From positions 1 through 33,477 of IMG/VR virus record IMGVR_UViG_3300037069_003546: a stretch of DNA of 33,477 bases. One strand, given 5' to 3'. The DNA is from a virus. This document shows positions 235 through 33,477 of this stretch, piece after piece. Each line of letters starts with the position of its first letter. Within the stretch, counting starts at the first letter, position 1. The position numbers and the translations under genes were made by a program. The notes beneath the pieces were generated by a model. It saw only the letters and a program-made list of their open reading frames with translations. It searched no databases and had not been told where the DNA came from.

Positions 235-244
235 AGATACCCCC

Positions 245-898: not shown

Positions 899-899
899 G

Positions 900-1061: not shown

Positions 1062-1066
1062 CGAAC

Positions 1067-2494: not shown

Positions 2495-2507
2495 GGAAAG
2501 CTCCTAG

Positions 2508-3440: not shown

Positions 3441-3449
3441 CTTTATCCT

Positions 3450-5366: not shown

Positions 5367-5368
5367 GA

Positions 5369-5662: not shown

Positions 5663-5664
5663 AT

Positions 5665-5682
5665 AAAGTATGATTTGAGGAC
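5665..5682. repeat. 18-bp direct repeat copy 1, upstream of a GTG start
   Basis: The 18-mer AAAGTATGATTTGAGGAC (plus strand) recurs exactly at 8903-8920. On the minus strand both copies lie 2-5 nt upstream of a GTG start lacking an SD. On the plus strand this copy supplies the GAGG that precedes the ATG at 5687. It may be a phage-specific promoter or translation signal. Confidence 0.6.
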
Positions 5683-5686
5683 AAGG

Positions 5687-5848
5687 ATGATTCTGGATGT
5701 GCTGGCATGGTTCGGAGTGCTTTGGTTAATCTTACTGATACTCTATTGTGCCTGGCATACGATGGAGATTTGGATTCCTTGCTTACTCTTTCTAGGGGGC
5801 GTTGTGTTTATGTTGTGGTCGGTTTGTCGGGTTCTGGGCCACTGCTAG
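5687..5848 (+). CDS. 53-aa two-helix membrane protein, antisense to the late operon
   Basis: Small plus-strand ORF in an otherwise gene-free gap of the minus-strand packaging cluster. It begins MILDVLAWFGVLWLILLILY and continues WIPCLLFLGGVVFMLWSVC, giving two strong membrane segments joined by a short CAWHTMEI loop. GAGG lies 7 nt before the ATG. Its last 41 bp overlap the end of the oppositely oriented 65-aa gene. The minus strand of 5663-5807 has no comparable frame. Two short helices would suit a holin or a superinfection/lysis regulator, but no family is recognised. Orientation opposite to its neighbours is the main oddity. Confidence 0.5.
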   Translation: MILDVLAWFGVLWLILLILYCAWHTMEIWIPCLLFLGGVVFMLWSVCRVLGHC

Positions 5849-6005
5849 TTTTACGATCCAGCTTCTTGAAGAAAGCCAAAAGAGCCCGGGTAGCTTTTCC
5901 ATCTTTAATCACCCACCCCAGTTCAGGGTGGTAGACGTCCTTCTTTCCAGTTTGTCGGGTTAATTCATAGACGGCCCGTCGCACCTTGTCATTCAACTCA
6001 CTCAT
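5808..6005 (-). CDS. Small basic hypothetical protein, 65 aa
   Basis: Begins MSELNDKVRRAVYELTRQTG. The ATG at 6005 is 5 nt after the zinc-finger gene's stop and is preceded by GGTGA, so I prefer it to the upstream in-frame ATG at 6032. The protein is helical and basic with a polar C-terminal tail (SSGPEPDKPTTT). No family recognised. It lies between terminase and portal in the packaging operon. Confidence 0.6.
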   Translation of the reverse strand: MSELNDKVRRAVYELTRQTGKKDVYHPELGWVIKDGKATRALLAFFKKLDRKTSSGPEPDKPTTT

Positions 6006-6010
6006 CCCAG

Positions 6011-6244
6011 TCACCACCGATTCTTTTCCCAAGCATCATCTACTGCCCTTTCCACCTGCATTTTTCTTATATCGTGTTTCTCAAGGTGGTCTTTCATCAT
6101 CCATTCATCAAAACATTCATATTCTTCACAGAGCGTGCATTTGAGAACGTGGTCTTCCTGCGCATGCTTTGCCATCTCATCATAGGTCGGAAAGGTTTTA
6201 TAACAGCGGTAGCATTGCCTGAATTCAGTTCCCGAAGATTTCAT
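6011..6244 (-). CDS. Two-finger C2H2 zinc-finger protein, 77 aa
   Basis: Two classical zinc-finger spacings are visible: C11-x2-C14-x12-H27-x4-H32 (CYRCYKTFPTYDEMAKH) and C36-x2-C39-x13-H53-x3-H57 (CTLCEEYECFDEWMMKDH). The start at 6244 has AAGGAG 4 nt upstream and overlaps the end of the large terminase gene by 20 nt. Tandem C2H2 fingers are known in some phage and bacterial small proteins (Ros/MucR has one) but are uncommon. Nucleic-acid or protein binding is likely. Its place between terminase and portal suggests packaging or late regulation, as inference. Confidence 0.75.
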   Translation of the reverse strand: MKSSGTEFRQCYRCYKTFPTYDEMAKHAQEDHVLKCTLCEEYECFDEWMMKDHLEKHDIRKMQVERAVDDAWEKNRW

Positions 6245-7709
6245 TAAACTCCTTTTCCTGCTCATCCCAGGTGTCATCATAAGCCAGCTCCAGATGGTTC
6301 TGGTTCTGCTTCTTCCTAACTTCTTCCTGAAGCTTTTCGATATGGGCCGGTTCCCACTGGTCTTGTTTATGGGGGTCTACCCATTTGCGGCCATGATCAA
6401 ACACGCCGAGATAAGAATAGCAATAACGCCATAAATAGAGCACCGAGTCACACAAATCGTTGTGAATAGATTCATCTTCTTTTCTAGGCTCTAAGACCTT
6501 TCCATTGGTATCCGTTTCCCAGACTAAGCTTTCATATTCCTGTTGGAGAGGTTTCGTTTCTTTCTCTAAAAGGAGAATCTTCTTCTGAATGAAGTCGTCA
6601 TTCATGATTTTGATAAAGTCAGCTTTACCTTTCTTGTCCGTAGGGAGCAAATGAGTCCCATGCCGGTTATTCAGCTCCGCCAAGGCTTGCTTATTTGCTC
6701 CATCGCAGACCTTCACGTCGAACTTATATTTACGTTCTAGCAAATGGATATGAAGCGCTACGTCAGTGATATCCATCTTGAGCGCTTTAAAGGCATATAC
6801 AATAAACAAAATAGGTAATCCTTCGGAATAAGCTCCTATGGCAAAGGCAGTACTGTCCGGAGAATGAGCCAAGTCAACCCCAAGCACGTAACGAAAACCA
6901 ACATCAGAGGCAGGAGTGTTAGGCACACAATTACCATCCGCTCGAAATTTGTAAACTCTGGCTTCTTCGTCAATGACCCATTCGTTTCGATACCATTGTC
7001 GAAATAATGAAGTTTCCATGAACTCAGGTCGGTTCTTTTGGATGTCATCCAGCTCCTCTTTCCATTGCCGTGCAACATAAGGATTGTCTAAAGCGCTCCA
7101 GCTAAAGACCTTCCATCCGTTTTCTCGACCCGTAGTAATGTCAAAGAAGAGTCCAGCCGTTCTGTTCCCAGCTGTGCCCATCAGGCAAATCGTACCCCCC
7201 TGATCGATTACCGTAGGTCCCAACACCCCATAAACTAAAGTTCTCATGTCAATGCGGTAGCTTTGAGACTCATCTATAATGACGAGCTTCCATTTCTTGC
7301 CTAAGAGCTTTTTCATTTGCTCCTCGGTCGCATCCACACCCGTAATATAAATCATGGATCCATTAGAGTGTGTGAGTGTCAGCTCAGTTAGATTAGGCTC
7401 GACCGAAAGATTATGCTTAGTGTTAATGTCGATCAGAATATCTTTCCAAATAATGCCCTTCGCTACTCCGCGAGAAAGACCTATATAAAGGCAGTTGCAA
7501 TTGGAATAATTAAGAGCCGTTTGGGTGAGGTATGTTCCAGCTGTGTAGGATTTGGCCGCACGTCTTGTGCACCAAAGCACCTTCCTCCTTGCGGGGTCCT
7601 CTATAAACTCACATTGTTTAGGGAAGTTTCGGTCCAGTATGCTCGGAGGCTCCGTTAGCAATTCCGCTGCCTCCTGCACTAGGGATTCCATCAGTTCCAG
7701 GACGTCCAT
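6225..7709 (-). CDS. terL: Terminase large subunit (packaging ATPase/nuclease), 494 aa
   Basis: Motor that pumps DNA through the portal and cuts concatemers. The N-terminal ATPase has Walker A CTRRAAKSYT (about residues 47-56) and Walker B LVIIDES (142-148). The C-terminal RNase H-like nuclease has acidic motifs VLGVDLAHSPDS, VKVCDGANK and HNDLCDSVLYLW. Length is normal. It overlaps the small-subunit gene by 92 nt with the ATG at 7709. An in-frame TTG at 7661 (residue 17) has AGGAGG 8 nt upstream, whereas the ATG has no good SD, so translation may really start at 7661. It is followed by the coupled zinc-finger gene. Confidence 0.93.
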   Translation of the reverse strand: MDVLELMESLVQEAAELLTEPPSILDRNFPKQCEFIEDPARRKVLWCTRRAAKSYTAGTYLTQTALNYSNCNCLYIGLSRGVAKGIIWKDILIDINTKHNLSVEPNLTELTLTHSNGSMIYITGVDATEEQMKKLLGKKWKLVIIDESQSYRIDMRTLVYGVLGPTVIDQGGTICLMGTAGNRTAGLFFDITTGRENGWKVFSWSALDNPYVARQWKEELDDIQKNRPEFMETSLFRQWYRNEWVIDEEARVYKFRADGNCVPNTPASDVGFRYVLGVDLAHSPDSTAFAIGAYSEGLPILFIVYAFKALKMDITDVALHIHLLERKYKFDVKVCDGANKQALAELNNRHGTHLLPTDKKGKADFIKIMNDDFIQKKILLLEKETKPLQQEYESLVWETDTNGKVLEPRKEDESIHNDLCDSVLYLWRYCYSYLGVFDHGRKWVDPHKQDQWEPAHIEKLQEEVRKKQNQNHLELAYDDTWDEQEKEFNEIFGN

Positions 7710-8160
7710 TTTTAATATTCTCTAATACGTCTATATACCTCTTCATGAGTGTCACTTTCTGATCAGGTAATAGATCTGGTTTGGCCGGTTTAATATGTTC
7801 AATTGTCTTGAGCTTTGGATAGGAGTAGTGCGCCAGGTCCTTGATGATATCTGCTGCAATCTTTAAATAAATATGGCCTTTATCCTCGGTGGGAAATAAT
7901 CCACTCATCTCTCTTGCTTTAGATATGGCCTCAAAGATCGTTCCATAGTTATCGAAAACGGCCATCGCTTTTTTATAGCAAAGAATCATTTCCCTAGCGG
8001 GCTCAACTCCTTCTTCTTTTAGAATCTCAGAGACGGATTTAGGACCCGAGACCATTTCCAAGACAGGATAATGGGCAGGTCTTCTGCTCATGATGGGAGC
8101 TTTACTAGGACTTCCTTTTTTTCTGCCCCCGTATTTAGGGTGCCCAGGTTCGAACGGCAT
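7618..8160 (-). CDS. terS: Terminase small subunit, 180 aa
   Basis: DNA-recognition partner of the packaging motor. It starts MPFEPGHPKYGGRKKGSPSK, the basic Gly/Arg/Lys N-terminus typical of many phage small terminases, and continues into a helical body (VSEILKEEGVEPAREMILCY) with a short coiled region. It lies immediately upstream of the large subunit. The ATG at 8160 fits this homology-like N-terminus; a TTG at 8181 would add seven residues. Neither has a clear SD. The 3' end overlaps the large-subunit gene. Identification rests on N-terminal character and position. Confidence 0.75.
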   Translation of the reverse strand: MPFEPGHPKYGGRKKGSPSKAPIMSRRPAHYPVLEMVSGPKSVSEILKEEGVEPAREMILCYKKAMAVFDNYGTIFEAISKAREMSGLFPTEDKGHIYLKIAADIIKDLAHYSYPKLKTIEHIKPAKPDLLPDQKVTLMKRYIDVLENIKNGRPGTDGIPSAGGSGIANGASEHTGPKLP

Positions 8161-8187
8161 ACTATATTTTACATGAGTCAATACTAA

Positions 8188-8442
8188 CTAGGCGCTCAAT
8201 TCTTCTTTTTCTTCGTCTTTAGTATCTACTTTTGTTTCACCCTTTAGAAGCTTGATACTTTGAATATTGGCATAAGGAACAATGTGTTCATCTCCAGTCG
8301 AAGTTTTGACGTAGATACCAAACGGCAATATCTCCGCTTCCAGTTTCATGTTCACACAGTGAAATGCGTGTTTAGGCATAGGCCCGATGCTCGGGTCGAT
8401 GTGACAGCGAAAGAACTCTATTTTCTTACCTTTTAGATTCAT
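8188..8442 (-). CDS. Small hypothetical protein, 84 aa
   Basis: Begins MNLKGKKIEFFRCHIDPSIG, with AAGGA 6 nt before the ATG. Contains alternating hydrophobic strands (MKLEAEILPFGIYVKTS, EHIVPYANIQSIKLL) suggesting a small beta-barrel, with an acidic tail (KDEEKEELSA). Not recognised. It partly resembles phage single-strand-binding or SH3-like folds, but nothing diagnostic is visible. It lies between the GNAT gene and the small terminase. Confidence 0.6.
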   Translation of the reverse strand: MNLKGKKIEFFRCHIDPSIGPMPKHAFHCVNMKLEAEILPFGIYVKTSTGDEHIVPYANIQSIKLLKGETKVDTKDEEKEELSA

Positions 8443-8453
8443 TTGATTTCCTT

Positions 8454-8900
8454 TCAAAAGAGATGAGGGACAAATTTAAAGTTTTCGAATCGCTCAGATG
8501 AGCGACCCATGATTTTTGCTGCTTGATAGGTCATATGGGTGAAAATGACGGTCTTTTTGGTCACCGGGGCGATCCTATTAATAAGTTCTTTTCCTATTCC
8601 ATTCTGCTTAAAGAGGGTCTTTATATAGACGTAATGAATCACCGGAACCGTATCTATTGTTTCATAGGCCGCCCATCCGATAATATGCCAAGGATCATCC
8701 GAAGGAGCACAAACAAGGATGTTCTCCGAATTCTCTAAAACAAACTTTTCTCTACGAGGCCGATGAATTTTATGGAACGATTCGCGACTGACGAAACCGG
8801 CATAGGAACTGGAATGATAAGAAGATCCCCACGAATCTATAATAAAACTATGATCGGCCTGAGTTGCAGGACGATAGAGGAGTTCGACTTGTTCACTCAC
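8454..8900 (-). CDS. GNAT-family N-acetyltransferase, 148 aa
   Basis: Predicted to transfer an acyl group from acyl-CoA to an amine. It has the GNAT layout: an N-terminal strand/helix (YRPATQADHSFIIDSW), central strands ending in VIHYVYIKTLFKQNGIGKEL (motif A with Q-x-x-G-x-G for the CoA pyrophosphate), and a C-terminal helix/strand. The substrate cannot be told. GNAT proteins are common next to phage terminases, where their role is unclear. The GTG start lacks an SD; an exact 18-bp repeat (8903-8920) ends 2 nt upstream. Confidence 0.8.
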   Translation of the reverse strand: MSEQVELLYRPATQADHSFIIDSWGSSYHSSSYAGFVSRESFHKIHRPRREKFVLENSENILVCAPSDDPWHIIGWAAYETIDTVPVIHYVYIKTLFKQNGIGKELINRIAPVTKKTVIFTHMTYQAAKIMGRSSERFENFKFVPHLF

Positions 8901-8902
8901 AC

Positions 8903-8920
8903 AAAGTATGATTTGAGGAC
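8903..8920. repeat. 18-bp direct repeat copy 2, upstream of GNAT start
   Basis: Exact copy of 5665-5682. On the minus strand it begins with the last base of the preceding gene's stop codon and ends 2 nt before the GTG at 8900. No other copy was found by eye in the window. Confidence 0.6.
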
Positions 8921-9279
8921 TATTTTAATCTCAGATAATTTCTGATCTTCTTAATTTTCCTACAAATCCAGGTCTGATCAAAATCGACTTCTTTGGCTAT
9001 TTCCCTCGAACTCTTACCTTCGGCATGCATGGTCCATATTTTCTCATCAATACTGTTTTCAAATTCGCTCCGAGCGGCGTGCTGAAGAGCCCAGGAATAA
9101 TAATCGCGAATGGGTCCCATAAGATCCATTGTGAATCTTTTAAGCTGATGCAAGCGTTCAGTGTAGAAGACCATCCTGCCATTATCATCTTCTATGTCCT
9201 GAAAGCCCTGCTCCTTGAGCCTGGCATAATACTGCCGCTGAAGTTTTTTAAACTCCCGAGTTTTATAGACACTCATCAT
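8920..9279 (-). CDS. HTH DNA-binding protein, 119 aa
   Basis: A basic N-terminal helix (REFKKLQRQYYARLKEQGF) is followed by a C-terminal helix-turn-helix resembling sigma region 4 or a homeodomain-like domain (TMHAEGKSSREIAKEVDFDQTWICRKIKKI). The start abuts the upstream gene's TAA. It probably regulates late transcription or aids packaging-site recognition, inferred from its place just upstream of the terminase genes. The exact family is not recognised. Confidence 0.65.
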   Translation of the reverse strand: MMSVYKTREFKKLQRQYYARLKEQGFQDIEDDNGRMVFYTERLHQLKRFTMDLMGPIRDYYSWALQHAARSEFENSIDEKIWTMHAEGKSSREIAKEVDFDQTWICRKIKKIRNYLRLK

Positions 9280-9678
9280 TTATGCTGGCTCTGGCAGGTC
9301 CTCGAGATCTGTCACTTCTTCTAAGTTTGGCCTATCCTCGACGGTTTCTGTGACAGGATTCTTCTTGGCCTCTTCTTCCATCTTAAGAGCCCATTTTTTC
9401 TTAAGCTCATCCATGGCCTTTTTCTTTTGGCCTTGAGCGAGTTCATTCATTGCGAGCCGCTTACAGAAATTGGCAATATGCCCATAAGGCTTTCTGATGC
9501 TTTGACCAGGAACCGAGGTCACCTGACCTGCGATGGTTGCCCTCACTTCAGCGCTATCCGGAATTCCGTATTGTTCAAAGAGAACCTGGCACAAGGCTTC
9601 GTATTCCTCTTCCGTTCGTGGAAGCTTCCTAGGGACATAGGCAGTGAAGTGATAATAGAGTTTCTTCAGTCTCTTCAT
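9280..9678 (-). CDS. Hypothetical helical protein, 132 aa
   Basis: A basic, aromatic N-terminus (MKRLKKLYYHFTAYVPRKLP), then helices (TEEEYEALCQVLFEQYGI, IANFCKRLAMNELAQGQKKK) and a very acidic C-terminal tail. It starts by a 4-nt ATGA overlap with the 78-aa gene upstream and ends against the HTH gene, so the three are probably translated together. No family recognised. Confidence 0.65.
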   Translation of the reverse strand: MKRLKKLYYHFTAYVPRKLPRTEEEYEALCQVLFEQYGIPDSAEVRATIAGQVTSVPGQSIRKPYGHIANFCKRLAMNELAQGQKKKAMDELKKKWALKMEEEAKKNPVTETVEDRPNLEEVTDLEDLPEPA

Positions 9679-9911
9679 ACAGAATCCGGTGTTTTTTCTG
9701 CATTCTTGAGAGCCTGTAGATCCAAACAGAGCTTATTCATAGCCATAAATTCTTGATCTATTTCAACTTCGAGTAACTTCTTTCTGAACTCTTTATCTCC
9801 CACCATAGCCGCATGCTTTTTATATTCTTCGTTTATGTCTTTTTCTGTCTTTGTAGGTATTTCGGATGTAGATGGAACTTCTTGCACCTGCGAAGGAACG
9901 ACGTTTGACAT
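9675..9911 (-). CDS. Small hypothetical protein, first gene of the late minus operon, 78 aa
   Basis: Unrecognised, acidic and coiled-coil-like (EKDINEEYKKHAAMVGDKEF), with a Ser/Thr/Pro-rich N-terminus. The SD AAAGGAGAT lies 5 nt before the ATG. It is the promoter-proximal gene of the leftward transcript that runs through packaging and head genes, and its ATG overlaps the -35 box of the divergent plus-strand promoter. Confidence 0.65.
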   Translation of the reverse strand: MSNVVPSQVQEVPSTSEIPTKTEKDINEEYKKHAAMVGDKEFRKKLLEVEIDQEFMAMNKLCLDLQALKNAEKTPDSV

Positions 9912-9933
9912 AGGATCTCCTTTTCCTTATTTT
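9905..9933 (+). promoter_or_regulatory. Sigma70-like promoter for the plus-strand tail cluster
   Basis: TTGACA (9905-9910, consensus), 17-nt spacer, TATTTT (9928-9933, 4 of 6). It would start transcription near 9940, about 50 nt before the ATG at 9989. The -35 box overlaps the start codon of the divergent 78-aa gene. Confidence 0.5.
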
Positions 9934-9939
9934 ACAAAG

Positions 9940-9968
9940 AGTATTGTTTCAATTCTTATTAGAATCAA
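9940..9968 (-). promoter_or_regulatory. Sigma70-like promoter for the leftward late operon
   Basis: On the minus strand: TTGATT (9963-9968), 17-nt spacer, AATACT (9940-9945), each 4 of 6 to consensus. It lies back to back with the plus-strand promoter at 9905-9933 and about 30 nt from the ATG at 9911, so the two would interfere or be co-regulated. Confidence 0.4.
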
Positions 9969-9988
9969 CAATTTTCACGGAGAATAAA

Positions 9989-10207
9989 ATGTTACAAGGA
10001 CTCGTAGACGCACTGTTGCCCACACTGGTTCAAGAAGCTGAAACCCTTTTAGGAAGCAAGCCGCAATCCAACGATTGGATTACGGGCTTAGTCCAGGAAA
10101 TAGCATCTCTTTTAGGTAATAAATTACCAGGCTGGCTACAGCCAGAAATGGATGAAATCGAAGCTCTGATAGAAGCTGGTCTTGAAAAACTAGTGTCAAA
10201 AGTTTGA
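9989..10207 (+). CDS. Small amphipathic helical protein, 72 aa
   Basis: Starts MLQGLVDALLPTLVQEAETL at the ATG at 9989, preceded by CGGAGA 5 nt upstream; an in-frame ATG 45 nt earlier lacks an SD. The protein looks like two amphipathic helical repeats (LVDALLPTLVQEAETLLG and LVQEIASLLGNKLPGWL) and is acidic, with no long membrane segment. It may associate with membranes or act as a virion peptide. Family unknown. It is the first gene of the plus-strand cluster. Confidence 0.6.
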   Translation: MLQGLVDALLPTLVQEAETLLGSKPQSNDWITGLVQEIASLLGNKLPGWLQPEMDEIEALIEAGLEKLVSKV

Positions 10208-10393
10208 TATTGTTTCCAAAATTTAGTTACCTGATGTGAGCCATTGAGCAAAGCGGATAGAAGTAAAATAGACTTTGTGTAATGGTTCATATTCTATTTT
10301 TGATTTCTTTTGATGGAATGAAAAGCCTCAAAACGTACTTTATGACTAGCTCAAATTAAAAACGTTGAGCGAACCCATTAGGAGTCATAAAAG
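10208..10393 (+). other. Intergenic leader of the tail-accessory genes
   Basis: A gap of 186 bp, AT-rich, with no credible ORF on either strand. The only clear signal is the SD AGGAG (10380-10384) before the ATG at 10394. No strong promoter or terminator hairpin was recognised. Confidence 0.4.
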
Positions 10394-10789
10394 ATGCTGA
10401 AGGAAATCACTCCGTCTTATCCCATCTTTAACAATGCCAGTATGACTGGCAGTACCACCATCACTTCACTTCAAACAAACGTTGGATATAAAGATTCAGT
10501 TTCGATTGAGTTAGTGTGGACCGGAACTCCCACAGGAAACTTCTTTGTTCAGGGATCAAATAGTTATAATCCGGGCACACCGCAAACAGGTACACCTAAT
10601 GCGGGTACTTGGACCACTATCCCAGTTGTAGATCCCACCACTGGTCAGACACCGCAAGCATCAGGTCAGGCCGGACAGAATTTAATTAATCTGAAACAGG
10701 CCGGGTTTCCATGGATCCAAGTGGTCTACACGAACGCATCCGGCACCGGAACCCTTAATGCAGTTATTTACGCAAAGAGTCTAGGCTAA
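10394..10789 (+). CDS. Beta-rich virion accessory protein, 131 aa
   Basis: Ser/Thr/Gly-rich beta-sandwich-like protein. The pattern FFVQGSN ... W ... GFPWIQVVYTNASGTGTLNA ... KSLG matches the two 117-aa proteins at 13956-14680 (VQLQGSND ... NW ... YEYLQLVYT ... GVGSLLARMKSF), so all three are probably paralogues. A capsid- or tail-bound decoration or receptor-binding role is inferred from composition and its place beside the adhesin. It overlaps the next gene by one base (TAATG), implying coupling. Confidence 0.6.
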   Translation: MLKEITPSYPIFNNASMTGSTTITSLQTNVGYKDSVSIELVWTGTPTGNFFVQGSNSYNPGTPQTGTPNAGTWTTIPVVDPTTGQTPQASGQAGQNLINLKQAGFPWIQVVYTNASGTGTLNAVIYAKSLG

Positions 10790-11697
10790 TGGCTACATCA
10801 AATTATTCTGAAATCGTAACCCCCGTTTATATTACAGGTGGAATTTCGGTAGCTGTGGGCGTACCGGATGAAACCGCTTTCACCTACGGCGTTTCTATTA
10901 CGGACCCTATCGGGGGCGTGTATCAAGATGCTTCTCCGGCAGTGTCCTCGCAAGGAAAAGTAGGCGGAATTAGAATCACTCAGTTCCGAGGAATGCACGT
11001 CAATTTAAGGGATAGCTCCGGAAATGAACTTCTAGGGCAGAAATTAAGCGCAGCAAGTATCCCAGTAGTCCTAGCTTCAGACCAATCTATTATTAGCACG
11101 GGCGATGCGGCCGATGGACCCGTGGCTCCAAATACCGCTGCTAGCAAGTCCATGTTAATCGGAGGAGTGTATAATACTGTTCTTCCCTCTCCTACTACTG
11201 GCCAGCAAATGGCCCTTCAGCTGGATTCTAGCGGTAGAATCATTATTTCTCCACTTACAATAGCAAGTGTAATCAAAGTTGATTTACAGGATGGATCCGG
11301 CAATGTAATCAATTCTACTTCAAATGCTTTAGATGTGGCAGTCACTCAGCCCCTGCCAGCTGGCACCAATACCATAGGCTCTTTTTCAGTTACTGGCACA
11401 GCCATTGGGAATGCTCCCATTCAAAATGTTTATTCCTCTACGAATATTACTACAGGCGCTTATGTTCAATTGGTGGCAAGCACATCAAGCGCTATCAATA
11501 CCCTTTATATTTTCGATTCTTCGGGTCAAGCGATGATTTTAGGAATAGGTGCACCCGCTTCTGAAGTAACAACTCTCTATGTGCCACCAGGCGGAGGAGA
11601 TTACACTTTGCATATACCGGCAGGATCTCGCCTAGCATACAAAGCGCTCACCGCTAATGCCACCTCCGGTTACCTCTTAATGAGCTTCTTAGGATAA
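10789..11697 (+). CDS. Putative tail/adhesin-associated structural protein, 302 aa
   Basis: Low-charge, Ser/Thr/Ala/Gly-rich protein with many beta strands. The N-terminal part (VGGIRITQFRGMHVNLRDSSG) resembles tail-attached baseplate/fibre connectors. The C-terminal domain (about 200-302) has GAYVQLVASTSSAINTLYIF and GGGDYTLHIPAGSRLAYKAL, typical of small jelly-roll-like virion domains. It is translationally coupled to its upstream neighbour and 3 nt from the adhesin gene. Probably links or decorates the receptor-binding structure. Confidence 0.6.
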   Translation: MATSNYSEIVTPVYITGGISVAVGVPDETAFTYGVSITDPIGGVYQDASPAVSSQGKVGGIRITQFRGMHVNLRDSSGNELLGQKLSAASIPVVLASDQSIISTGDAADGPVAPNTAASKSMLIGGVYNTVLPSPTTGQQMALQLDSSGRIIISPLTIASVIKVDLQDGSGNVINSTSNALDVAVTQPLPAGTNTIGSFSVTGTAIGNAPIQNVYSSTNITTGAYVQLVASTSSAINTLYIFDSSGQAMILGIGAPASEVTTLYVPPGGGDYTLHIPAGSRLAYKALTANATSGYLLMSFLG

Positions 11698-11700
11698 GAT

Positions 11701-13761
11701 ATGGCTAATTCACCTTTTATTTATGGCCCTAACGGCGCAACCAGTTTAGTACCAGGAGGAATAACTCTTCCGGGTTCTACCAGCGGCACAATACAAATTG
11801 AACCTAATGCCTCTACCACTTCTTACACGATAATAATGCCAGCTGGCCAGGGCGGCGTATCTACCTTTCTGCAAAACGATGGATTCGGAAATTTAACTTG
11901 GGTTGCGGGAAATCCTGGCACTGTTACATCTTTTGCATTTACAAATGGTGCCAATATCACGGGAACCGTCACAACTCCTACGAGCGTTCCTACTTTATCC
12001 TTAGCTCCTACGAGTTCAGTTCCAGCAGCTTCTAGCTTTGCTTCATGGGATTCCAATAAGAATTTATCTGCAAATAATTTAATTGATGCTTATACAACTA
12101 CCGCCACCGCTGCCGGGACCACTACTCTAACGGTAAGTAGTACTGCACAACAATATTTCACAGGGACCACAACGCAAACCGTTGTTTTACCTGTTACCTC
12201 AACCCTAGTATTAGGCCAACAATTTATAATAGTGAACACATCTACCGGGCTTGTGACGGTAGAATCTTCAGGAGCCAATGTTATCCAAATCATGGCTTCT
12301 AATACTCAATTAATAGCCACGTGTATTTTGACTTCAGGAACGACAGCGGCTTCTTGGAGCATTAGCTATATCGCCCTAGGAATCTCTGTCCCTACTCAGC
12401 CCACGATTCAAAAATTTACATCAGGTTCAGGCACCTACACCACTCCGCCAGGGGTTCAATTTATTCGGGTCCGAATGGTAGGAGGAGGCGGAGGCGGAGG
12501 GGCCGGTGTTGGGAACGTAGGAGGAAGTAACGGCGGCAATACTACCTTTGGAACTACCTTATTGGTCGCAAACGGTGGTTCAGGCGCAACAAATAATAGC
12601 AGTCTTAACGGTGGTGCTGGTGGAACCGCTTCTCTGGGAGGCGTGCCAGGAACTGCGATAACTGGCACTACGGGTGCCTGCGGACTAGATTTGAGCGCCG
12701 GGATTACAGCTGGTGCCCAGGGAGGTAGCGCCCCTTATTTCTCAGGCGCGGGTGCAGGGACTGAAGGAAATGGCGGAAATGGCATTGCAAATACGGGCGG
12801 TGGTGGCGCCGGAGCTATAAATGGCACGACTGCCGGCGGGGGCGGCGGCGGTTCGGGCGGATTCGTAGAAGCGATTATCACTGGCCCCTTAGCAACCTAT
12901 GCTTATGCAGTAGGCGCAGGCGGTGCCGGGGGCAATAGCAGCGGCATAGGGGGTACCGGAGGATCCGGTTATATAGAAGTCACTGAATATTATATCAACT
13001 TAGCCATCAGCACTAATGTCGCTGTCGGAGCGAATACCATTTTAGCAGGCCCTTCAAGCGGAGCTTCAGCAGTTCCCACTTTTAGATCCTTAGCAACCGG
13101 AGATTTTGTAGCTCCTACGATTCAAAACTTTACATCAGGTTCAGGCACCTACACTACTCCGACCGCTCCTAGATCTCCTGTATATATTCGCGTCAGAATG
13201 GTCGGGGGCGGTGGTGGCGGAGGCGGCGGTTCCGGAACTGGTCATACCGACGGTGGAACTGGCGGAACTGGTGGGTCCACAACATTCGCATCTAACACTT
13301 GTGCTGGCGGTGTCGGCGGCGGTGATTATGGCAACGGCATCAGTACCGGTGGCGCAGGTGGAGCACCTACACTAGGCACAGGTGTTGGTACTGCAATGAC
13401 TGGAAACGGGGGAGCAGCAGGTGGAACGAATGGCTCAACTAGAATTTACCCAGGTGGCAGCGGTGGTGCCGGCCCTTGGGGCGGTGCTGCTCAGGGAACT
13501 AACTTAAATACGGCCGGTATAGCATCGGCTAATAACAGTGGATCTGGTGGGAGCGGGTGCGGTTCTAATAACGGCGGTACCTCGGGTACAGGTGGTGGAA
13601 GTGGCGGATATATTGACTGTTTGATCAGTGGAGCAGCCTTAGTCTCTTCTTTTTCATGGAGTGTGGGAGCAGGTGGTGCTGCTGGCACAGCCGGGACCGG
13701 GGGACATGCAGGCGGCGCGGGCGGATCGGGGTATATCGAAGTGACTGAATTTTATCAATAA
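11701..13761 (+). CDS. Glycine-rich receptor-binding adhesin/tail fibre, 686 aa
   Basis: N-terminal 230 residues form a beta-rich shaft (TTTLTVSSTAQQYFTGTTTQ, TQTVVLPVTSTLVLGQQFII). Two tandem copies of a glycine-rich tip domain follow, each starting FTSGSGTYTTP, then IRVRMVGGGGGGG, a long G-rich stretch, and ending SGYIEVTE(Y/F)Y (about residues 235-430 and 470-686). These resemble glycine-rich phage adhesin domains in which polyglycine helices present variable loops to the receptor. The DNA encoding each domain start is a 45-bp near-identical repeat, so recombination could swap or lose a copy. Confidence 0.75.
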   Translation: MANSPFIYGPNGATSLVPGGITLPGSTSGTIQIEPNASTTSYTIIMPAGQGGVSTFLQNDGFGNLTWVAGNPGTVTSFAFTNGANITGTVTTPTSVPTLSLAPTSSVPAASSFASWDSNKNLSANNLIDAYTTTATAAGTTTLTVSSTAQQYFTGTTTQTVVLPVTSTLVLGQQFIIVNTSTGLVTVESSGANVIQIMASNTQLIATCILTSGTTAASWSISYIALGISVPTQPTIQKFTSGSGTYTTPPGVQFIRVRMVGGGGGGGAGVGNVGGSNGGNTTFGTTLLVANGGSGATNNSSLNGGAGGTASLGGVPGTAITGTTGACGLDLSAGITAGAQGGSAPYFSGAGAGTEGNGGNGIANTGGGGAGAINGTTAGGGGGGSGGFVEAIITGPLATYAYAVGAGGAGGNSSGIGGTGGSGYIEVTEYYINLAISTNVAVGANTILAGPSSGASAVPTFRSLATGDFVAPTIQNFTSGSGTYTTPTAPRSPVYIRVRMVGGGGGGGGGSGTGHTDGGTGGTGGSTTFASNTCAGGVGGGDYGNGISTGGAGGAPTLGTGVGTAMTGNGGAAGGTNGSTRIYPGGSGGAGPWGGAAQGTNLNTAGIASANNSGSGGSGCGSNNGGTSGTGGGSGGYIDCLISGAALVSSFSWSVGAGGAAGTAGTGGHAGGAGGSGYIEVTEFYQ
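12403..12447 (+). repeat. 45-bp repeat A in the adhesin gene (start of tip domain 1)
   Basis: Encodes TIQKFTSGSGTYTTP. It matches 13117-13161 at 43 of 45 bases by eye, far closer than the rest of the two domains. Confidence 0.75.
13117..13161 (+). repeat. 45-bp repeat B in the adhesin gene (start of tip domain 2)
   Basis: Second copy, encoding TIQNFTSGSGTYTTP. Recombination between copies would delete one 714-bp unit in frame. Confidence 0.75.
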
Positions 13762-13770
13762 AGGGTATTT

Positions 13771-13959
13771 ATGCCGTATCGTAGCGAAAAACAAAGACGA
13801 TTCTTTCATACAGAAACAGCAAAAAAAGCTGGTATTACCGCGGCAGAAGTAAAAGAGTTCGACCATGCTTCTAAAGGGATGAGCTTGCCTGAAGCGATAA
13901 AGCACAAGAAATCTCATGAAAAGAGAAAAAAGATGTACCGGGGAGGGATGGTAAAGTGA
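13771..13959 (+). CDS. Small basic protein with SEKQRRFFH motif, 62 aa
   Basis: MPYRSEKQRRFFHTETAKKA resembles a widespread small phage protein type that begins M-P-(Y/F)-x-S-E-x-Q-R-R-(F/W/Y), usually found among structural genes. It is strongly basic and helical, ending KRKKMYRGGMVK. Its TGA overlaps the GTG start of the next gene (GTGA). Molecular role unknown. Confidence 0.65.
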   Translation: MPYRSEKQRRFFHTETAKKAGITAAEVKEFDHASKGMSLPEAIKHKKSHEKRKKMYRGGMVK

Positions 13960-14309
13960 GACCGAATAACTGCATTGTCATGAATAACCTCAATTCGGCA
14001 ACCAATCAGAATTCTACCCCTCAATGGACTGATACGATAGTGAGAGCTTCTTTTCAAATCGTTAATACAGGAACCTCCACAGGCTCCGTCCAACTCCAGG
14101 GCTCCAATGACCAAGCCATCGGTCTTCCTGCAAATCAATTTACTCCTACAAACTGGTTCAATATTGGCAGCGCTGTGACTATTAATGCTGCCGGGGTATT
14201 TTCAATTGCAGAACAGGAACTTTGTTACGAATATTTACAGCTTGTTTATACAGTTAACTCCGCGGGAGTCGGGAGCTTATTGGCCAGGATGAAATCATTT
14301 TCTTTTTAA
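13956..14309 (+). CDS. Beta-rich virion accessory protein, paralogue 1, 117 aa
   Basis: Begins with GTG (MRPNNCIVMNNLNSA) and overlaps the previous stop by 4 nt. It is closely similar to the next gene along its full length, sharing QWTDTIVR, DDQAIGLPANQFTPTNWFN-like and LLARMKSFS blocks, and more distantly similar to the 131-aa protein at 10394. Predicted all-beta, uncharged surface protein, probably a virion decoration or receptor-binding subunit. No enzyme motif. Confidence 0.65.
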   Translation: MRPNNCIVMNNLNSATNQNSTPQWTDTIVRASFQIVNTGTSTGSVQLQGSNDQAIGLPANQFTPTNWFNIGSAVTINAAGVFSIAEQELCYEYLQLVYTVNSAGVGSLLARMKSFSF

Positions 14310-14326
14310 ATATGAGGTAAGTATAA

Positions 14327-14680
14327 ATGAGACCAAATAATTGTATTATTATGAATAATCTGAGTGCAGCTTCCAATCAGACTTCTACCGTTCAATGGAC
14401 TGATACAATCGTAAGGGTTTCCTTTCAGGTGGTTAATTCCGGAACTTCAACCGGAACGCTTCAACTTCAGGCATCAGATGACCAAGCTATCGGACTCCCC
14501 GCTAATCAGTTCACTCCTACAAACTGGTTTAACGTGGGTGGAACCGTTTCGGTGACGGGAGCAGGCGTATTTGTGGTTACCCAGCAAGAAGTGGCCTACG
14601 AATATTTAAAGTTAGTATTTACGAGCAGTGTGCCCGGCACAGGGACATTGCTAGCCAGGATGAAATCTTTCTCTCTTTAG
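14327..14680 (+). CDS. Beta-rich virion accessory protein, paralogue 2, 117 aa
   Basis: Tandem duplicate of the preceding gene (MRPNNCIIMNNLSAASNQTS). Differences cluster in the first third and in the VSVTGAGVFVVTQQEV region, while AIGLPANQFTPTNWFN is identical. It has its own SD (GAGG, 10 nt upstream) and is the last gene of the plus-strand cluster. Divergence between copies may reflect different binding targets. Confidence 0.65.
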   Translation: MRPNNCIIMNNLSAASNQTSTVQWTDTIVRVSFQVVNSGTSTGTLQLQASDDQAIGLPANQFTPTNWFNVGGTVSVTGAGVFVVTQQEVAYEYLKLVFTSSVPGTGTLLARMKSFSL

Positions 14681-17191: not shown

Positions 17192-17212
17192 TTAAACCTC
17201 ATTTAAAAAAGG

Positions 17213-17290
17213 CTGGGCCGGCGGGATTCGAACCGCGCAATATTATCTCCCGAAACAGGGGAGCACCTTTACCAGTTTGGCAACGGCCCA
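17213..17290 (-). tRNA. tRNA-like gene, anticodon GUU (Asn), degenerate
   Basis: On the minus strand a perfect 7-bp acceptor stem (TGGGCCG/CGGCCCA), discriminator G, perfect anticodon stem CTCCC/GGGAG with loop CTGTTTC (U33, anticodon GUU), and T-loop TTCGAAT. Departures from a normal tRNA: positions 37-38 are U,C instead of A,A; the T-stem needs one bulged C; the D-stem keeps about three pairs; the variable region is long; the 3' end reads CC then T rather than CCA. T6 follows directly. It may be a decayed or specialised tRNA. An exact boundary call needs a covariance model. Confidence 0.6.
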
Positions 17291-17300
17291 GTTTTAATCA

Positions 17301-17513
17301 GCGCGGGCCATAAGGGGTTCTTTATCTAGTATTGACCCTTCCGCCACATCCCTAGAACGTGACTCTGCACCCGCGCCTTATTATCTCGGATTGGCGTGCA
17401 GTGACGCCTCGTTTTATACTTCACTGACAGGCTCTTACGAACGGGCCAGCGAGCCCTGCCGCACCGTTAACGACACCCACTGTCGGGTTATGCCGGCAAA
17501 GTCTCCGAGATAA
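17301..17513 (-). ncRNA. Structured noncoding RNA region A, adjacent to the tRNA-like gene
   Basis: This 213-nt stretch has no ORF and folds as two closed domains. Domain 1 is closed by a 10-bp stem 17381-17390/17504-17513 and contains 17399-17404/17421-17426 (CAGTGA/TCACTG), 17443-17446/17453-17456, 17457-17461/17494-17498 and 17471-17475/17481-17485. Domain 2 is closed by 17301-17307/17370-17376 (GCGCGGG/CCCGCGC), tRNA-sized at 76 nt but without a T-arm. The strand is taken from the flanking genes and the tRNA-like sequence plus T6 at its 3' side. Function unknown. Confidence 0.5.
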
Positions 17514-17515
17514 AT

Positions 17516-22149: not shown

Positions 22150-22169
22150 ACTGTTTCCTTCCTTAATTA

Positions 22170-22242
22170 AGGTAGCTCGATATCAACATTGATATGGAGG
22201 TGCGCTCGATGAGTGCATATTTTGTACACCTCTATATAGAGC
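22170..22242 (-). promoter_or_regulatory. Nested inverted repeats in the HTH gene leader
   Basis: Between promoter and SD: TAGCTC near 22171 pairs with GAGCTA near 22238, GAGGTG near 22197 with CACCTC near 22227, and ATATCA/TGATAT around 22178-22193. A CTTAATTAAG palindrome lies next to the SD. This could be an operator for the HTH protein or a leader RNA structure. Confidence 0.45.
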
Positions 22243-22261
22243 TACACTCGCTTGGTGTGAA
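22233..22261 (-). promoter_or_regulatory. Sigma70-like promoter for the HTH/zinc-ribbon transcript
   Basis: Minus strand: TTCACA (22256-22261, 5 of 6), 17-nt spacer, TATATA (22233-22238, 4 of 6). It lies about 84 bp upstream of the ATG at 22149 and directly after the ERF gene terminator. Confidence 0.55.
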
Positions 22262-22263
22262 GG

Positions 22264-22300
22264 AAAATAAAAAGGGCCGGAAATGAAGATAACCGGCCCC
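22264..22300 (-). terminator. Rho-independent terminator after the ERF gene
   Basis: Minus strand GGGCCGG (22293-22299) pairs with CCGGCCC (22274-22280), 12-nt loop, followed by TTTTTATTT (22265-22273). It separates the ERF transcript from the HTH transcript. Confidence 0.75.
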
Positions 22301-22338
22301 CAACCCATTCAACTTTACATTATAAGGAGTAATCTAGA

Positions 22339-23079: not shown

Positions 23080-23148
23080 CTGTTTATCCTCTTTGTTCCG
23101 GCGAAACAGCTCTAAATCGTAAATGTTCATAGCTGTTCGCCTATCATG

Positions 23149-23161
23149 TTTTTGTCAAAAA
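23149..23161. promoter_or_regulatory. Operator-like palindrome 1
   Basis: TTTTTG-T-CAAAAA, a perfect inverted repeat with 6-bp arms in the divergent region between erf and the RHH gene. It shares its half-site with the palindrome at 23205-23231. Confidence 0.45.
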
Positions 23162-23204
23162 GGGATATGTCATAGACGGGCAGCAATTGCAAGCAAAATT
23201 CCTA

Positions 23205-23231
23205 TTTTTGCTGACATTTTTCAGACAAAAA
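23205..23231. promoter_or_regulatory. Operator-like palindrome 2
   Basis: TTTTTG (23205-23210) and CAAAAA (23226-23231) with inner CTGA/TCAG arms, about 10 pairs and one unpaired A. Candidate binding site for the RHH protein encoded 49 bp away. Confidence 0.45.
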
Positions 23232-23279
23232 TATTGCGCAGAAATTGCTTTGTGGTAATAAGACGATAGGAGGCAGCTT

Positions 23280-23480
23280 ATGTTTGAATTGAAACAGCAT
23301 GTTAAGGGCGTTCATGGTGAGAGAATTACCGTTAGATTTGAACCTATGCAGGCTAAAAAACTAGAAGGTATTGCTGGTCATGAAGGTTGGAAAATTTCAG
23401 ATATGATTCGTGAAGCGGTAGACCATTGGGTTGAGGAATATAAAAAAAGACCCGGTTCTAAACAATTGTCCTTTTTATAA
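23280..23480 (+). CDS. Ribbon-helix-helix (Arc/CopG-like) repressor, 66 aa
   Basis: A beta strand (ERITVRFEP) leads into two helices (MQAKKLEGIAGHEG and KISDMIREAVDHWVEEYKKR), the ribbon-helix-helix fold of Arc/CopG/MetJ repressors, which bind DNA as dimers through the strand pair. AGGAGG lies 7 nt before the ATG. It is divergent from erf with two TTTTTG/CAAAAA palindromes between them, suggesting control of both itself and erf. It ends at a terminator hairpin. Confidence 0.75.
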   Translation: MFELKQHVKGVHGERITVRFEPMQAKKLEGIAGHEGWKISDMIREAVDHWVEEYKKRPGSKQLSFL

Positions 23481-23483
23481 TGA

Positions 23484-23522
23484 AAACCCCCGGTTGCTTT
23501 TCAGCCGCCAGGGGTTTATGTT
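23484..23522 (+). terminator. Terminator hairpin after the RHH gene
   Basis: AAACCCC (23484-23490) with GGGGTTT (23511-23517), inner CGGTTG/CAGCCG, followed by ATGTTTC. The tail is short, so some read-through into region C is expected. Confidence 0.55.
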
Positions 23523-23542
23523 TCGATCAAATTTTGTAAGGC

Positions 23543-23831
23543 GCTGAGTATTAGTCTCGAAAACAAGGCTCAGCTCCTAGACTGCATGTGAACGGTCTAT
23601 ACGATTCTAATCGTGAAATCAAGCACATTGCAGCTCGTTAACTGGAGAGGTACCCGCAATCCAGAGCCTAAGAGCAGCGTCGAAGTCGGCACTTAGGACA
23701 GAAAGCCAATCCTGGCTATGAGGGACAAGGACGTTTCTCACCGCTTCAGCTAACGAAAAATTCATCCCTAATGGGAACGTGTACCTTGAGTGTAACGGTG
23801 TCCTGGGTACTGAGGGGCCTTCTGCCCCTCA
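23543..23831 (+). ncRNA. Structured noncoding RNA region C
   Basis: About 290 nt with no ORF and a chain of stems: 23543-23548/23569-23574 (GCTGAG/CTCAGC); 23582-23590/23624-23633 (9 bp with a bulge) enclosing 23601-23605/23610-23614; 23635-23640/23751-23756 (TCGTTA/TAACGA) closing a multiloop of 23642-23646/23660-23664, 23667-23672/23692-23697 (CCTAAG/CTTAGG) and 23704-23708/23713-23717; then 23781-23785/23806-23810 and 23811-23818/23824-23831 (8 bp). A perfect terminator follows. The nested, non-crossing arrangement and the terminator support a discrete rightward RNA. Function unknown. Confidence 0.6.
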
Positions 23832-23841
23832 AGCTCCCCTG

Positions 23842-23876
23842 AACTGTTCCGCCTTCCAGGCTGGAACAGTTTTTTA
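23842..23876 (+). terminator. Strong terminator of RNA region C
   Basis: AACTGTTCC (23842-23850) with GGAACAGTT (23863-23871) plus inner GCCT/AGGC, followed by T6. It works only on the plus strand and ends 10 bp before the RusA stop codon. Confidence 0.8.
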
Positions 23877-23886
23877 AGACTTTTCT

Positions 23887-24339
23887 TCACGACCGACACA
23901 TCGAATAGGGCTTGATATGAACGTCTACTGTAGCCGTGTGCCTATCATTCGCAAACCATTTCTCCGCTGAAATTCTGAAGAAATAGCAATCGTCTATTTG
24001 GAGATAGTCTGCCAAGCAGTCATGGATGGCTTTTAACCTATTACTCGTATCCATCTTCTTAGGCCTGCCATCCTTGGTAAAGACTTTGGACTCTTCAAAG
24101 AGGAACAGGCAATGGACGTCAAGATAGAGACGGTTTGCCACCCAATTCTTAAAAATCTCTCGGTATTGGCTCAGTTCTGTCTGATGTCTCCACCAATAGG
24201 CATTCATGTCTGATTTAAATTTTCTTAATCCTTCTGAGGCGGCATGCCTGATTTTACCATTGCTAGACATAAAGGATTTGTACTGAGAATTGCTAGAAAC
24301 AGGCATGGGTAATCCATTGATTGATATCAAGTCAGTCAC
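23887..24339 (-). CDS. rusA: RusA-like Holliday junction resolvase, 150 aa
   Basis: Cleaves four-way junctions made during recombination or before packaging. The RusA signature is KKMDTSNRLKAIHDCLADYL followed by QIDDCYFFRISAEK: the D-x-x-N, the DxL helix and the D-D before a strand, as in the metal-binding active site. Length is close to family members (about 120-150). GTG start with GAGGTGA upstream, 13 nt after the transglycosylase stop. Functionally pairs with the ERF recombinase 0.8 kb away. Confidence 0.87.
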   Translation of the reverse strand: MTDLISINGLPMPVSSNSQYKSFMSSNGKIRHAASEGLRKFKSDMNAYWWRHQTELSQYREIFKNWVANRLYLDVHCLFLFEESKVFTKDGRPKKMDTSNRLKAIHDCLADYLQIDDCYFFRISAEKWFANDRHTATVDVHIKPYSMCRS

Positions 24340-30580: not shown

Positions 30581-33477
30581 TCATCCAATCGATTGAGCTG
30601 CCGGAACTCGTGGCCAGCCTTTTTTCTGCCCAAAAACAACTGTTAGGCCAGAAAATGTTATTCCGGCTCCGGCCGGAAGTCCTGCTGTTGAATTAAAGAA
30701 TTCTTGAAAGGTCATTTGTAATGACTGACATTTCTGATTCTCAAAGTTAATTCTCCATTGTTCTAACTGAGACACTCCGCCATACACTGCCGTAGATCCG
30801 TAGGGAGAATCAGAACCATAAGTGTTCGTCGAATTGAGAGGATTGATATTAAAACTTTGGATGGCCGCCGGATTATAATCATAGGCAATCTTCGTATTGA
30901 GAGAATGAGGACTTTGATAAGTTCCTAGTAAAAACGCCCAATAGGCCCTTTGTAATCCTTGGATCCCTGACAAATTAATCCAGCCCGTTTGAATCTTCAT
31001 CAAAACAGGATCCGCACCATCGAGATAAGAGCCTGGATTTTCCTGAAGCACCTGGCCATAAGGATTGATATAGGTGTGTAGCCCTTGGTAGATAGTTCCA
31101 GAAAGAGCCTTAAGATTCTTAAATGTTCCCCATTGATTGTAATAGTAATCATACATTAAGGTAACATTGTTGGAGAGGGTAAAAATGACATAAGTGGTTC
31201 CGGGGATAGAGTTCGCACTTAACACAGAATATTGATTGTAAGCTTCTACCTCTGCCCCTATATATTTGGTTGAAAGATCTCTTCCTAATAGCCAAATGCC
31301 TTGATTTTGGCTTGCTTGGAACATTAACCCTATCGGTGTAAAAATAATCGAATTATCATTTATTGACCCTACAGCACTGGTGATGAAAATAGGTTCACTA
31401 TATTGATTGTTATTCCCGGTGGAATCAGGACCTATTCCATTAATGTAGTAGAGTGCCTGTGTCTTAAAGATAATTAGCTTATCGTCCATCACAGCCAGTG
31501 TCTGCATAGGGCCAGTTGACCCCTCAGCACTGACCGTAGGACTGACGTATCTTGTCAGATTGAGCGACATCTCTACCGGAGTACTATCTATGATGAGCTG
31601 TGAAAAATTCAGGTTATTTGAATCTTCTGCGTTGATGGAAAAAAGTCTGTTATCGAAAAGGGTAAGTGACTTACAGGCTGGGCCACCCGTATTTTCTAAA
31701 ACCCCTCCGACCGTATAAAGGATCGAGTTGCCCACAATAGAACTATCTGCCGAAGTATCAGTAATGGTTACCTGATCCGAACTAGTGACGTTCAGCGTGG
31801 GGGATGTAACAGAGGTCACTTGATAATAGGTGGGCTGAGCCGTACTTGCTCTATAAAGCACAATCTTAACCGGATTATTAATTTTATAGGTAAGCCTAAG
31901 AGTAGGGACTTTAATAGTCACGGTATTGGATGATCCACTCAAAGAGCTCGACGACAAAGCAGCAGCTACACTGATTCCTGACCTGTGTATATTGCCTTGA
32001 TTATCCTGCCATTCGTAAGTTGCTATGTAGCTATAAGGCTGAGTAGTGATGGAACCCCCGCTAGAAGCGGCCGTAATTGCGTTCGGATCGAGATCAGGCC
32101 AAAGATGAAAATTCTGCTCACAAAGAGTGTTCCCATCATAAGCCCACATGAATCCGCCTGTCAGATTCAGGTTTCCTCCTATTTCCGCTGAAATTAAAGA
32201 GGAGCTAGAGAAATCTAGTTTAATGAGATTAACCCCCTTCTGCGCGTAAACTCCCTGATTCTGTCCACCAGAAGGTGCATTTTGGTTCTTATTTACCGAG
32301 GCAATAGCAAATTGATAAAGATAAGGGATTGTGACGATAGTCCCCTGTACTGTGGCTGAAGGGATCCCAGCCGTCAAATAACCGCCCCCATTTTGGTAAG
32401 CAAATTTTGCGTAAACATTTCCACTGCTGTCACATAAAAAATAAGTAGATTGATAGGTCGATTGATAGGCAGTCAAAAGGTAAATAGAGCTATTCATGAT
32501 GAATGGCTTCGAAGCGATCCCTACCGATCTCACAATAGTGGCAGGGCTAGATACCGTTCGAGAACTGGTAACAGTCAAGCTACTGATATAATTGGAAGCT
32601 GGACCACTGCTCCAACTATAAGCGTTTGATATTTCATAAAATACCGTGAGAACAGAAAGATTTGCCGAGGTAGCCAGATTTAAAACTCCGCTGCTGCTGG
32701 TAAACTGAGTGGGTATCATTACGGAGTTTAAATTTGCATCTACGGCAAGAACATACCCGCTACTTCCGGCATAATAAGTCACCCAGATGAGATTTAGACT
32801 TAAAGGAGTATTTTCACCAGCCACGCTAATCATCGTCCAATCAACAACAGAGCTATCACGAGTCACAGCACTGGAAACAACCAGCGACCCGGTAAGAATC
32901 ACCATTTTGATTCCAGAAGAGCTTGCCCCGTTATAAGCGATATAAAGTCTATTGTTAAAAACAGCTCCGTCAAATGCCACGGTTGAATGAGGCTGATAAG
33001 ATGCTGCAATATCAGCTGGATTAGTGACGCTAGAGGGCTGAGAGATATCAACGGCGATATATTTTAAATGGTATACCCCTGCTACATTGACCGTATATAA
33101 AATGACAAAGTAATTAGAGAGAAGAAATACCCGAGGAGTTCCGTAAGTGGGATCCGCACTGGCAAGCTGAGTCGGTGGAACGATATACACTCCCGTGGTT
33201 CCATCTAAAACCGCGTAGCTGAAGATATTTGCATTGATATTACTTGGGTTTTGATCCGTATAGACCACACAGACCGAACCATTCGGAGCCGTCACCGCAT
33301 CACATTGCGTCTGATTCGTACTGCTTCTGACCGCTGGTAAAACGCTCAATTGAATAGGTATAAAGTTACCATGAGAGGACCAAGTCTTTGTAGCGCCGGA
33401 ATAAGATTGAAGATTGGTTCCAATAGCCAATAAGTCGTTACTGAAAGTAGAAAGAAACGTATACCCTAGTGAAGGAT
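30581..33477 (-). CDS. Tail nozzle/stabilisation-like protein (P22 gp10 type), N-terminus beyond window
   Basis: At least 965 residues. The frame stays open to the right edge (PSLGYTFLSTFSNDLLAIGT precedes the first possible TTG at 33430), so the true start lies outside. Composition is beta-propeller-like, and the C-terminal half has KSLTLFDNRLFSINAEDSNN, LAVMDDKLIIFKTQALYYIN and TYVIFTLSNNVTLMYDYYYN, matching the repeated 'D-x-RL-F / DDKLIIF' strands of podovirus nozzle (phage stabilisation) proteins, though about twice the size of P22 gp10. It heads the run of ejection genes, as the nozzle does in P22. Confidence 0.68.
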   Translation of the reverse strand, partial: PSLGYTFLSTFSNDLLAIGTNLQSYSGATKTWSSHGNFIPIQLSVLPAVRSSTNQTQCDAVTAPNGSVCVVYTDQNPSNINANIFSYAVLDGTTGVYIVPPTQLASADPTYGTPRVFLLSNYFVILYTVNVAGVYHLKYIAVDISQPSSVTNPADIAASYQPHSTVAFDGAVFNNRLYIAYNGASSSGIKMVILTGSLVVSSAVTRDSSVVDWTMISVAGENTPLSLNLIWVTYYAGSSGYVLAVDANLNSVMIPTQFTSSSGVLNLATSANLSVLTVFYEISNAYSWSSGPASNYISSLTVTSSRTVSSPATIVRSVGIASKPFIMNSSIYLLTAYQSTYQSTYFLCDSSGNVYAKFAYQNGGGYLTAGIPSATVQGTIVTIPYLYQFAIASVNKNQNAPSGGQNQGVYAQKGVNLIKLDFSSSSLISAEIGGNLNLTGGFMWAYDGNTLCEQNFHLWPDLDPNAITAASSGGSITTQPYSYIATYEWQDNQGNIHRSGISVAAALSSSSLSGSSNTVTIKVPTLRLTYKINNPVKIVLYRASTAQPTYYQVTSVTSPTLNVTSSDQVTITDTSADSSIVGNSILYTVGGVLENTGGPACKSLTLFDNRLFSINAEDSNNLNFSQLIIDSTPVEMSLNLTRYVSPTVSAEGSTGPMQTLAVMDDKLIIFKTQALYYINGIGPDSTGNNNQYSEPIFITSAVGSINDNSIIFTPIGLMFQASQNQGIWLLGRDLSTKYIGAEVEAYNQYSVLSANSIPGTTYVIFTLSNNVTLMYDYYYNQWGTFKNLKALSGTIYQGLHTYINPYGQVLQENPGSYLDGADPVLMKIQTGWINLSGIQGLQRAYWAFLLGTYQSPHSLNTKIAYDYNPAAIQSFNINPLNSTNTYGSDSPYGSTAVYGGVSQLEQWRINFENQKCQSLQMTFQEFFNSTAGLPAGAGITFSGLTVVFGQKKGWPRVPAAQSIG

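Follow-up and report, generated by a model that had tools for sequence, protein, structure and literature searches.

A candidate structured RNA with a strong intrinsic terminator between the ribbon-helix-helix and RusA genes of a phage genome

The region between a ribbon-helix-helix (RHH) gene and a convergent RusA-like resolvase gene of a phage genome is noncoding, folds more stably than shuffled sequence, prefers the plus strand, and ends in an intrinsic terminator. As judged from a single sequence, it is a moderately supported candidate for a real structured RNA with a strong terminator. Its best explanation, which is put forward tentatively, is a noncoding RNA gene specific to this phage lineage that would be read rightward and would act via its fold; we infer promoter use, transcription, function, and mode of action from the features described below.

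The sequence analyzed, an IMG/VR virus record of 33,477 bases, is referred to here as the window. It contains T7-like portal and terminase relatives and genes for an Erf annealing protein, a RusA-like resolvase, a transglycosylase, and a DHH phosphoesterase. A second record, L002, is 100% identical over its positions 3–13715 to window positions 1–9940 and 32249–33476 on one 13.7-kb stretch, and thus joins both window ends, adding about 2.5 kb. Because L002 bridges these ends, the genome is probably circularly permuted, with a length of about 36 kb. Besides L002, ten IMG/VR records encode terminase relatives with 25–49% identity, and four of the longer ones (L164, L165, L166, and L170, records of 27.8–38.8 kb) share 46–49%. 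Elsewhere in the window, a 300-nt stretch is present in two diverged tandem copies (13943–14242 and 14314–14613), which are 71% identical and span two 117-aa ORFs. The tRNA-Asn(gtt) of the window is also found in two related phage records, L176/L177 and L182 (G001 and G004).

The gap between the RHH and RusA genes is 406 bases long (23481–23886; Table 1). The RHH product matches Pfam RHH_3 with an E-value of 0.0017 and RHH_1 with an E-value of 0.0037, both slightly below the curated cut-off, and a PHROG transcriptional repressor with an E-value of 1.9e-4. The first-pass annotation had described an ORF-free stretch of about 330 nt and, indeed, neither strand of 23543–23876 carries an ORF of 50 aa or longer, nor does the 406-base gap as a whole contain one. 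The GC content of the gap is 0.49, compared with 0.441 for the whole window and, among four other gaps of the window that were measured, 0.33–0.41 in all but the tRNA gap (0.53). Long GC-rich gaps are the feature by which published pipelines pick structured RNA candidates, as described in PMC11109978. Minus-strand coding was considered and rejected: a 69-codon open stretch with a 48-codon ATG frame has no protein relatives. A PADLOC scan of the RHH and RusA proteins returned no match, and no retron, CRISPR, or toxin-RNA partner gene lies beside the candidate RNA, whose neighbors are the Erf, RHH, RusA, and transglycosylase genes. A pseudogene or a defense partner was also considered, and the search of the neighboring genes yielded nothing for either.

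Table 1. Features in and around the gap between the RHH and RusA genes (window coordinates).
Feature	Position	Strand	Evidence or remark
Upstream gene, 66-aa ribbon-helix-helix (CopG-like) protein	23280–23480	+	Pfam RHH_3, RHH_1; PHROG
Two-way terminator-like hairpin: RHH gene rightward (poor T-run), leftward transcription (better T-run)	23483–23520	both	
Weak sigma-70-like promoter candidate, TTGCTT-17-TATGTT	23494–23522	+	overlaps hairpin 23483–23520; best site upstream of the RNA
5' hairpin, 7 pairs	23543–23574	+	mean pair probability 0.88
Domain 2, long hairpin with internal loops	23582–23633	+	pair probabilities 0.81–0.94; z −2.91, 0/100 shuffles
Domain 3, interrupted 15-pair helix closing a three-hairpin multiloop	23635–23756	+	z −2.56, 2/100 shuffles
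Small 4-pair hairpin	23765–23776	+	mean pair probability 0.96
GC-rich 8-pair hairpin	23811–23831	+	mean pair probability 0.95
Intrinsic terminator, 14 pairs and one bulge, then T-run	23841–23876	+	fold and T-run survey
Convergent downstream gene, RusA-like resolvase	23887–24339	−	Pfam RusA 2.2e-6, above cut-off

On the plus strand, 23543–23876 folds with an energy of −116.8 kcal/mol and a z-score of −3.98; the z-score on the minus strand is −2.39, and for neither strand was any of 100 dinucleotide shuffles as good. The region was also compared with 158 background stretches of 334 nt from both strands of the same genome (step 420, 25 shuffles each). In that comparison its own z-score was −3.73, which no background stretch reached; the lowest of them had −3.11, and one (23521, plus, z −3.06) overlaps the region itself. 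Removal of the terminator (leaving 23543–23837) raised the z-score to −2.34 on the plus strand (1 of 100 shuffles as good) and to −1.04 on the minus strand (20 of 100), indicating that the terminator hairpin supplies much of the fold signal. The terminator-free part prefers the plus strand, with an excess stability that is modest. Taken separately, the plus-strand domains have z-scores between −2.26 and −2.91. For the whole gap, the two strands are alike (−4.0 and −3.98). Values of −3.9 or lower were obtained for three of 34 gaps (5 of 68 strands) surveyed from this and related phages, two of which, both from related phages, score as low as or lower than 23481–23886. The fold stability is therefore best taken as suggestive of a structured RNA and not as proof of a selected structure; a recent critique argues that virtually every RNA has structure (PMC11234323).

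The predicted fold retains the architecture that had been noticed at first sight. The six-base pair said to close a three-hairpin multiloop is predicted at 23635–23640/23751–23756 (UCGUUA/UAACGA) with a mean pair probability of 0.87. It is extended by 23642–23647/23744–23749 (0.90) and 23649–23651/23740–23742 (0.80) into a helix of 15 pairs with two mismatches. In the three inner hairpins, the 5', long, and GC-rich hairpins, and the terminator, most helices have pair probabilities near or above 0.85. Eight to nine hairpins were found where nine stems had been counted, the number depending on the treatment of weak ones. Two pseudoknots proposed by eye, GGUACCC at 23650 with GGGUAC at 23805 and a loop AGGAC with GUCCU, are unsupported, since the predicted fold already pairs part of each 3' partner and 133 of 150 shuffles equaled or surpassed the best non-nested helix.

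The terminator at the 3' end of the region (hairpin 23841–23872 and T-run, −17.5 to −18.9 kcal/mol) ranks near the top of the 461 hairpin/T-run sites surveyed, in agreement with its initial description as near-perfect on the plus strand; it is absent from the list of a simple terminator scanner. At the opposite end of the gap, the hairpin following the RHH gene has an energy of −18.2 kcal/mol on the plus strand, where the survey lists it only via a later T-run at 23532. On the minus strand, the corresponding terminator at 23486 (−21.7 kcal/mol) ranks first of the 461 T-run sites and is the strongest leftward one in the window. Downstream of the RusA stop at 23887, no strong leftward terminator is met until 23486; the scanner lists a weak terminator-like site on the minus strand at 23779–23763. 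Because the terminator at 23486 lies past the RNA, readthrough from RusA would be fully antisense to it, and the claim of the first-pass annotation that the RNA is antisense to nothing is doubtful. Nor is its description as discrete and standing alone supported: although the RHH gene has a terminator-like hairpin ahead of the RNA, readthrough from that gene is possible. The promoter candidate overlapping this hairpin was scored with a crude weight matrix. As 8.9% of 415 plus-strand 80-nt segments hold a site as good, it is weak evidence, and a consensus promoter scanner found none.

Searches for known families and homologues returned no relative of the candidate RNA. At the gathering cut-off, the Rfam 15 covariance models, which include tmRNA, RNase P, 6S, riboswitches, GOLLD, ROOL, and group I/II introns, gave no match to it in the whole window. 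With the region alone and E-values up to 10, four hits were obtained (1.7–8.7), all far below gathering and none plausible. ARAGORN detected neither a tRNA nor a tmRNA in the candidate, its only hit being the tRNA-Asn at 17211–17291. Within the reach of Rfam and ARAGORN, the candidate is thus no known tmRNA, RNase P, 6S, or riboswitch, none of which the first-pass annotation had recognized. Blastn against 50,697 phage records returned chance matches only (nine, 25-nt, E 5), and against 72,556 plasmid records no match. An exact 18-mer of the multiloop strand had no occurrence in viral_contigs, where no RusA or RHH relatives were confirmed either. For the genome collection, the portal and terminase proteins were the sole queries, and no relative emerged.

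Records related through the terminase were also searched with the RNA itself. Neither blastn nor R1, a single-sequence covariance model of domain 3, matched any of the ten terminase-related records, and the four relatives with long records (46–49%) contain no sequence or R1 match. In G003, one of these four, the gene beside the transglycosylase homologue directly adjoins a convergent ORF, leaving no space between them. Across 20 sources, R1 matched the window alone, and it found nothing in 80 Erf-encoding viral loci. Nhmmer, run on 86, then 162, then 10 loci, gave a sole weak match (L002 11544–11735, E 0.028–0.059), which was discarded on account of its location within a 361-aa ORF. Single-sequence models and exact seeds are insensitive, and relatives below about 75% identity could escape them. 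The candidate RNA may be new, lineage-restricted, or simply unsampled.

Other structured gaps were observed in the window and in related records. A second GC-rich structured noncoding block of 224 nt (17292–17515, minus) lies directly upstream of tRNA-Asn(gtt); its z-score is −3.46 on its own minus strand versus −2.05, and a helix of 9–10 pairs, TTATCTCGG/CCGAGATAA, closes a multi-hairpin domain. Rfam yields only the tRNA there, and none of the ten related records contains a match to the block. It shares seven 8-mers with the candidate RNA against 1.7 expected when the tRNA is included, and four against 1.2 when it is left out. In an alignment of the two, 11–14 of 300 shuffles were as good in one of three scorings, and the other two scorings showed nothing; kinship was accordingly rejected as unproven. 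A further structured gap of the window (22150–22338, plus, z −3.6) is located between an HTH/transposase-like gene and Erf and contains terminator-like hairpins. The two low-scoring gaps of related phage records are L184 12273–12781 (z −6.67 plus, −5.48 minus), an AT-rich gap of a 35-kb record that contains repeats resembling CATACATTTTCGACATATACACA, and L179 9462–9757 on the minus strand (z −5.22), which has several terminator-like hairpins.

Several other readings of the region have to be weighed. It might belong to the RHH message as a structured 3' end: rightward transcription would read through the weak hairpin at 23483–23520 and stop at 23876, and the fold would serve only to stabilize or regulate the transcript. 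On the same strand, the RHH gene is the immediate upstream neighbor, and its hairpin has a poor T-run on the plus strand, but a promoter-like site and a terminator-like hairpin separate the gene from the RNA, and a phage 3' UTR of 400 nt would be long; we consider this reading unlikely. The window's strongest leftward terminator and the equally good minus-strand fold of the full gap (z −3.98) would instead suit the 3' UTR of a leftward RusA operon ending at 23486, or an antisense to it, in which case any plus-strand RNA would act in cis. Cis-antisense phage RNAs are indeed known, PAK_P4as15 and STnc6030 being listed in a recent review, PMC12197685. However, the minus-strand fold is ordinary without the terminator hairpin (z −1.04), and the weak site at 23779–23763 might stop some transcripts, so that this arrangement appears rather improbable.

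The fold might also have no function as RNA. The presence of Erf and RusA genes on either side of the region could point to a replication or recombination site, at which the inverted repeats would act in DNA. Iteron-like direct repeats are lacking, though: the only direct repeat in 23100–23900 is a 13-nt pair of 85% identity outside the RNA, and a plus-strand preference is unexpected for a DNA site, which makes this reading very unlikely. Decayed or chance-structured noncoding sequence, such as a degenerate mobile element or a lost gene between two real terminators, would agree with the modest z-score obtained without the terminator, with the empty homologue searches, with the three of 34 surveyed gaps at −3.9 or lower, and with the 69-codon open stretch on the minus strand. 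Against this, none of the 158 background stretches of the same genome equals the region, and the open stretch has no protein relative; such an origin is therefore held to be quite unlikely as well.

Returning to the lineage-specific RNA gene tentatively preferred here, transcription would proceed rightward from the weak promoter-like site at 23494–23522, which is suitably spaced from the RNA, starting near 23530, and the 3' end would be formed at the intrinsic terminator near 23876. In the resulting RNA of roughly 345 nt, five to six helical domains are predicted to surround the multiloop at 23635–23756, and this fold might bind a phage or host protein, or serve as an RNP scaffold or decoy. 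Antisense pairing to the translation starts of its own phage was considered and dropped. For the best duplex with 42 phage translation-start regions, 54 of 60 shuffles were equal or better; because complementarity does not exceed that of shuffled sequence, action through the fold appears likelier than that of a base-pairing regulator of its own phage. A bolder proposal, which we regard as doubtful, is that the RNA represents a new structured phage RNA class confined to one lineage of phages of about 36 kb, perhaps paired with the 17292–17515 block and acting in trans on a host or phage protein. If expressed and functional, the candidate would represent a class not yet described beside the few known large structured phage RNAs, for none of which the function is established, and it would demonstrate that RNAs of this kind can be restricted to a single phage lineage and thereby elude comparative searches.

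To date, the large structured noncoding RNAs described from phages and prophages include GOLLD and ROOL, which are characterized in PMC12286853 as being of unknown function, often near tRNA islands, and forming multimeric cages. The candidate RNA differs from both: it has no Rfam match to either, and no tRNA adjoins it (the sole tRNA is about 6.3 kb away). Its best non-nested helix gives no pseudoknot signal above shuffles (133/150). It is also shorter, at about 335 nt, than GOLLD RNAs, many of which are described as exceeding 800 nt. The small regulatory phage RNAs listed in Table 1 of PMC12197685 include sar, PreS, PAK_P4as15 (about 550 nt), and STnc6030 (786 nt). Like these, the candidate is noncoding and is possibly antisense to a leftward message, but it has no excess complementarity to phage translation starts, and kinship in sequence is not expected. 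Finally, it resembles the structured 3' UTRs and terminators of phage messages in its position between two terminator-like hairpins and two genes, whereas it is longer and modestly more folded than terminators alone require.
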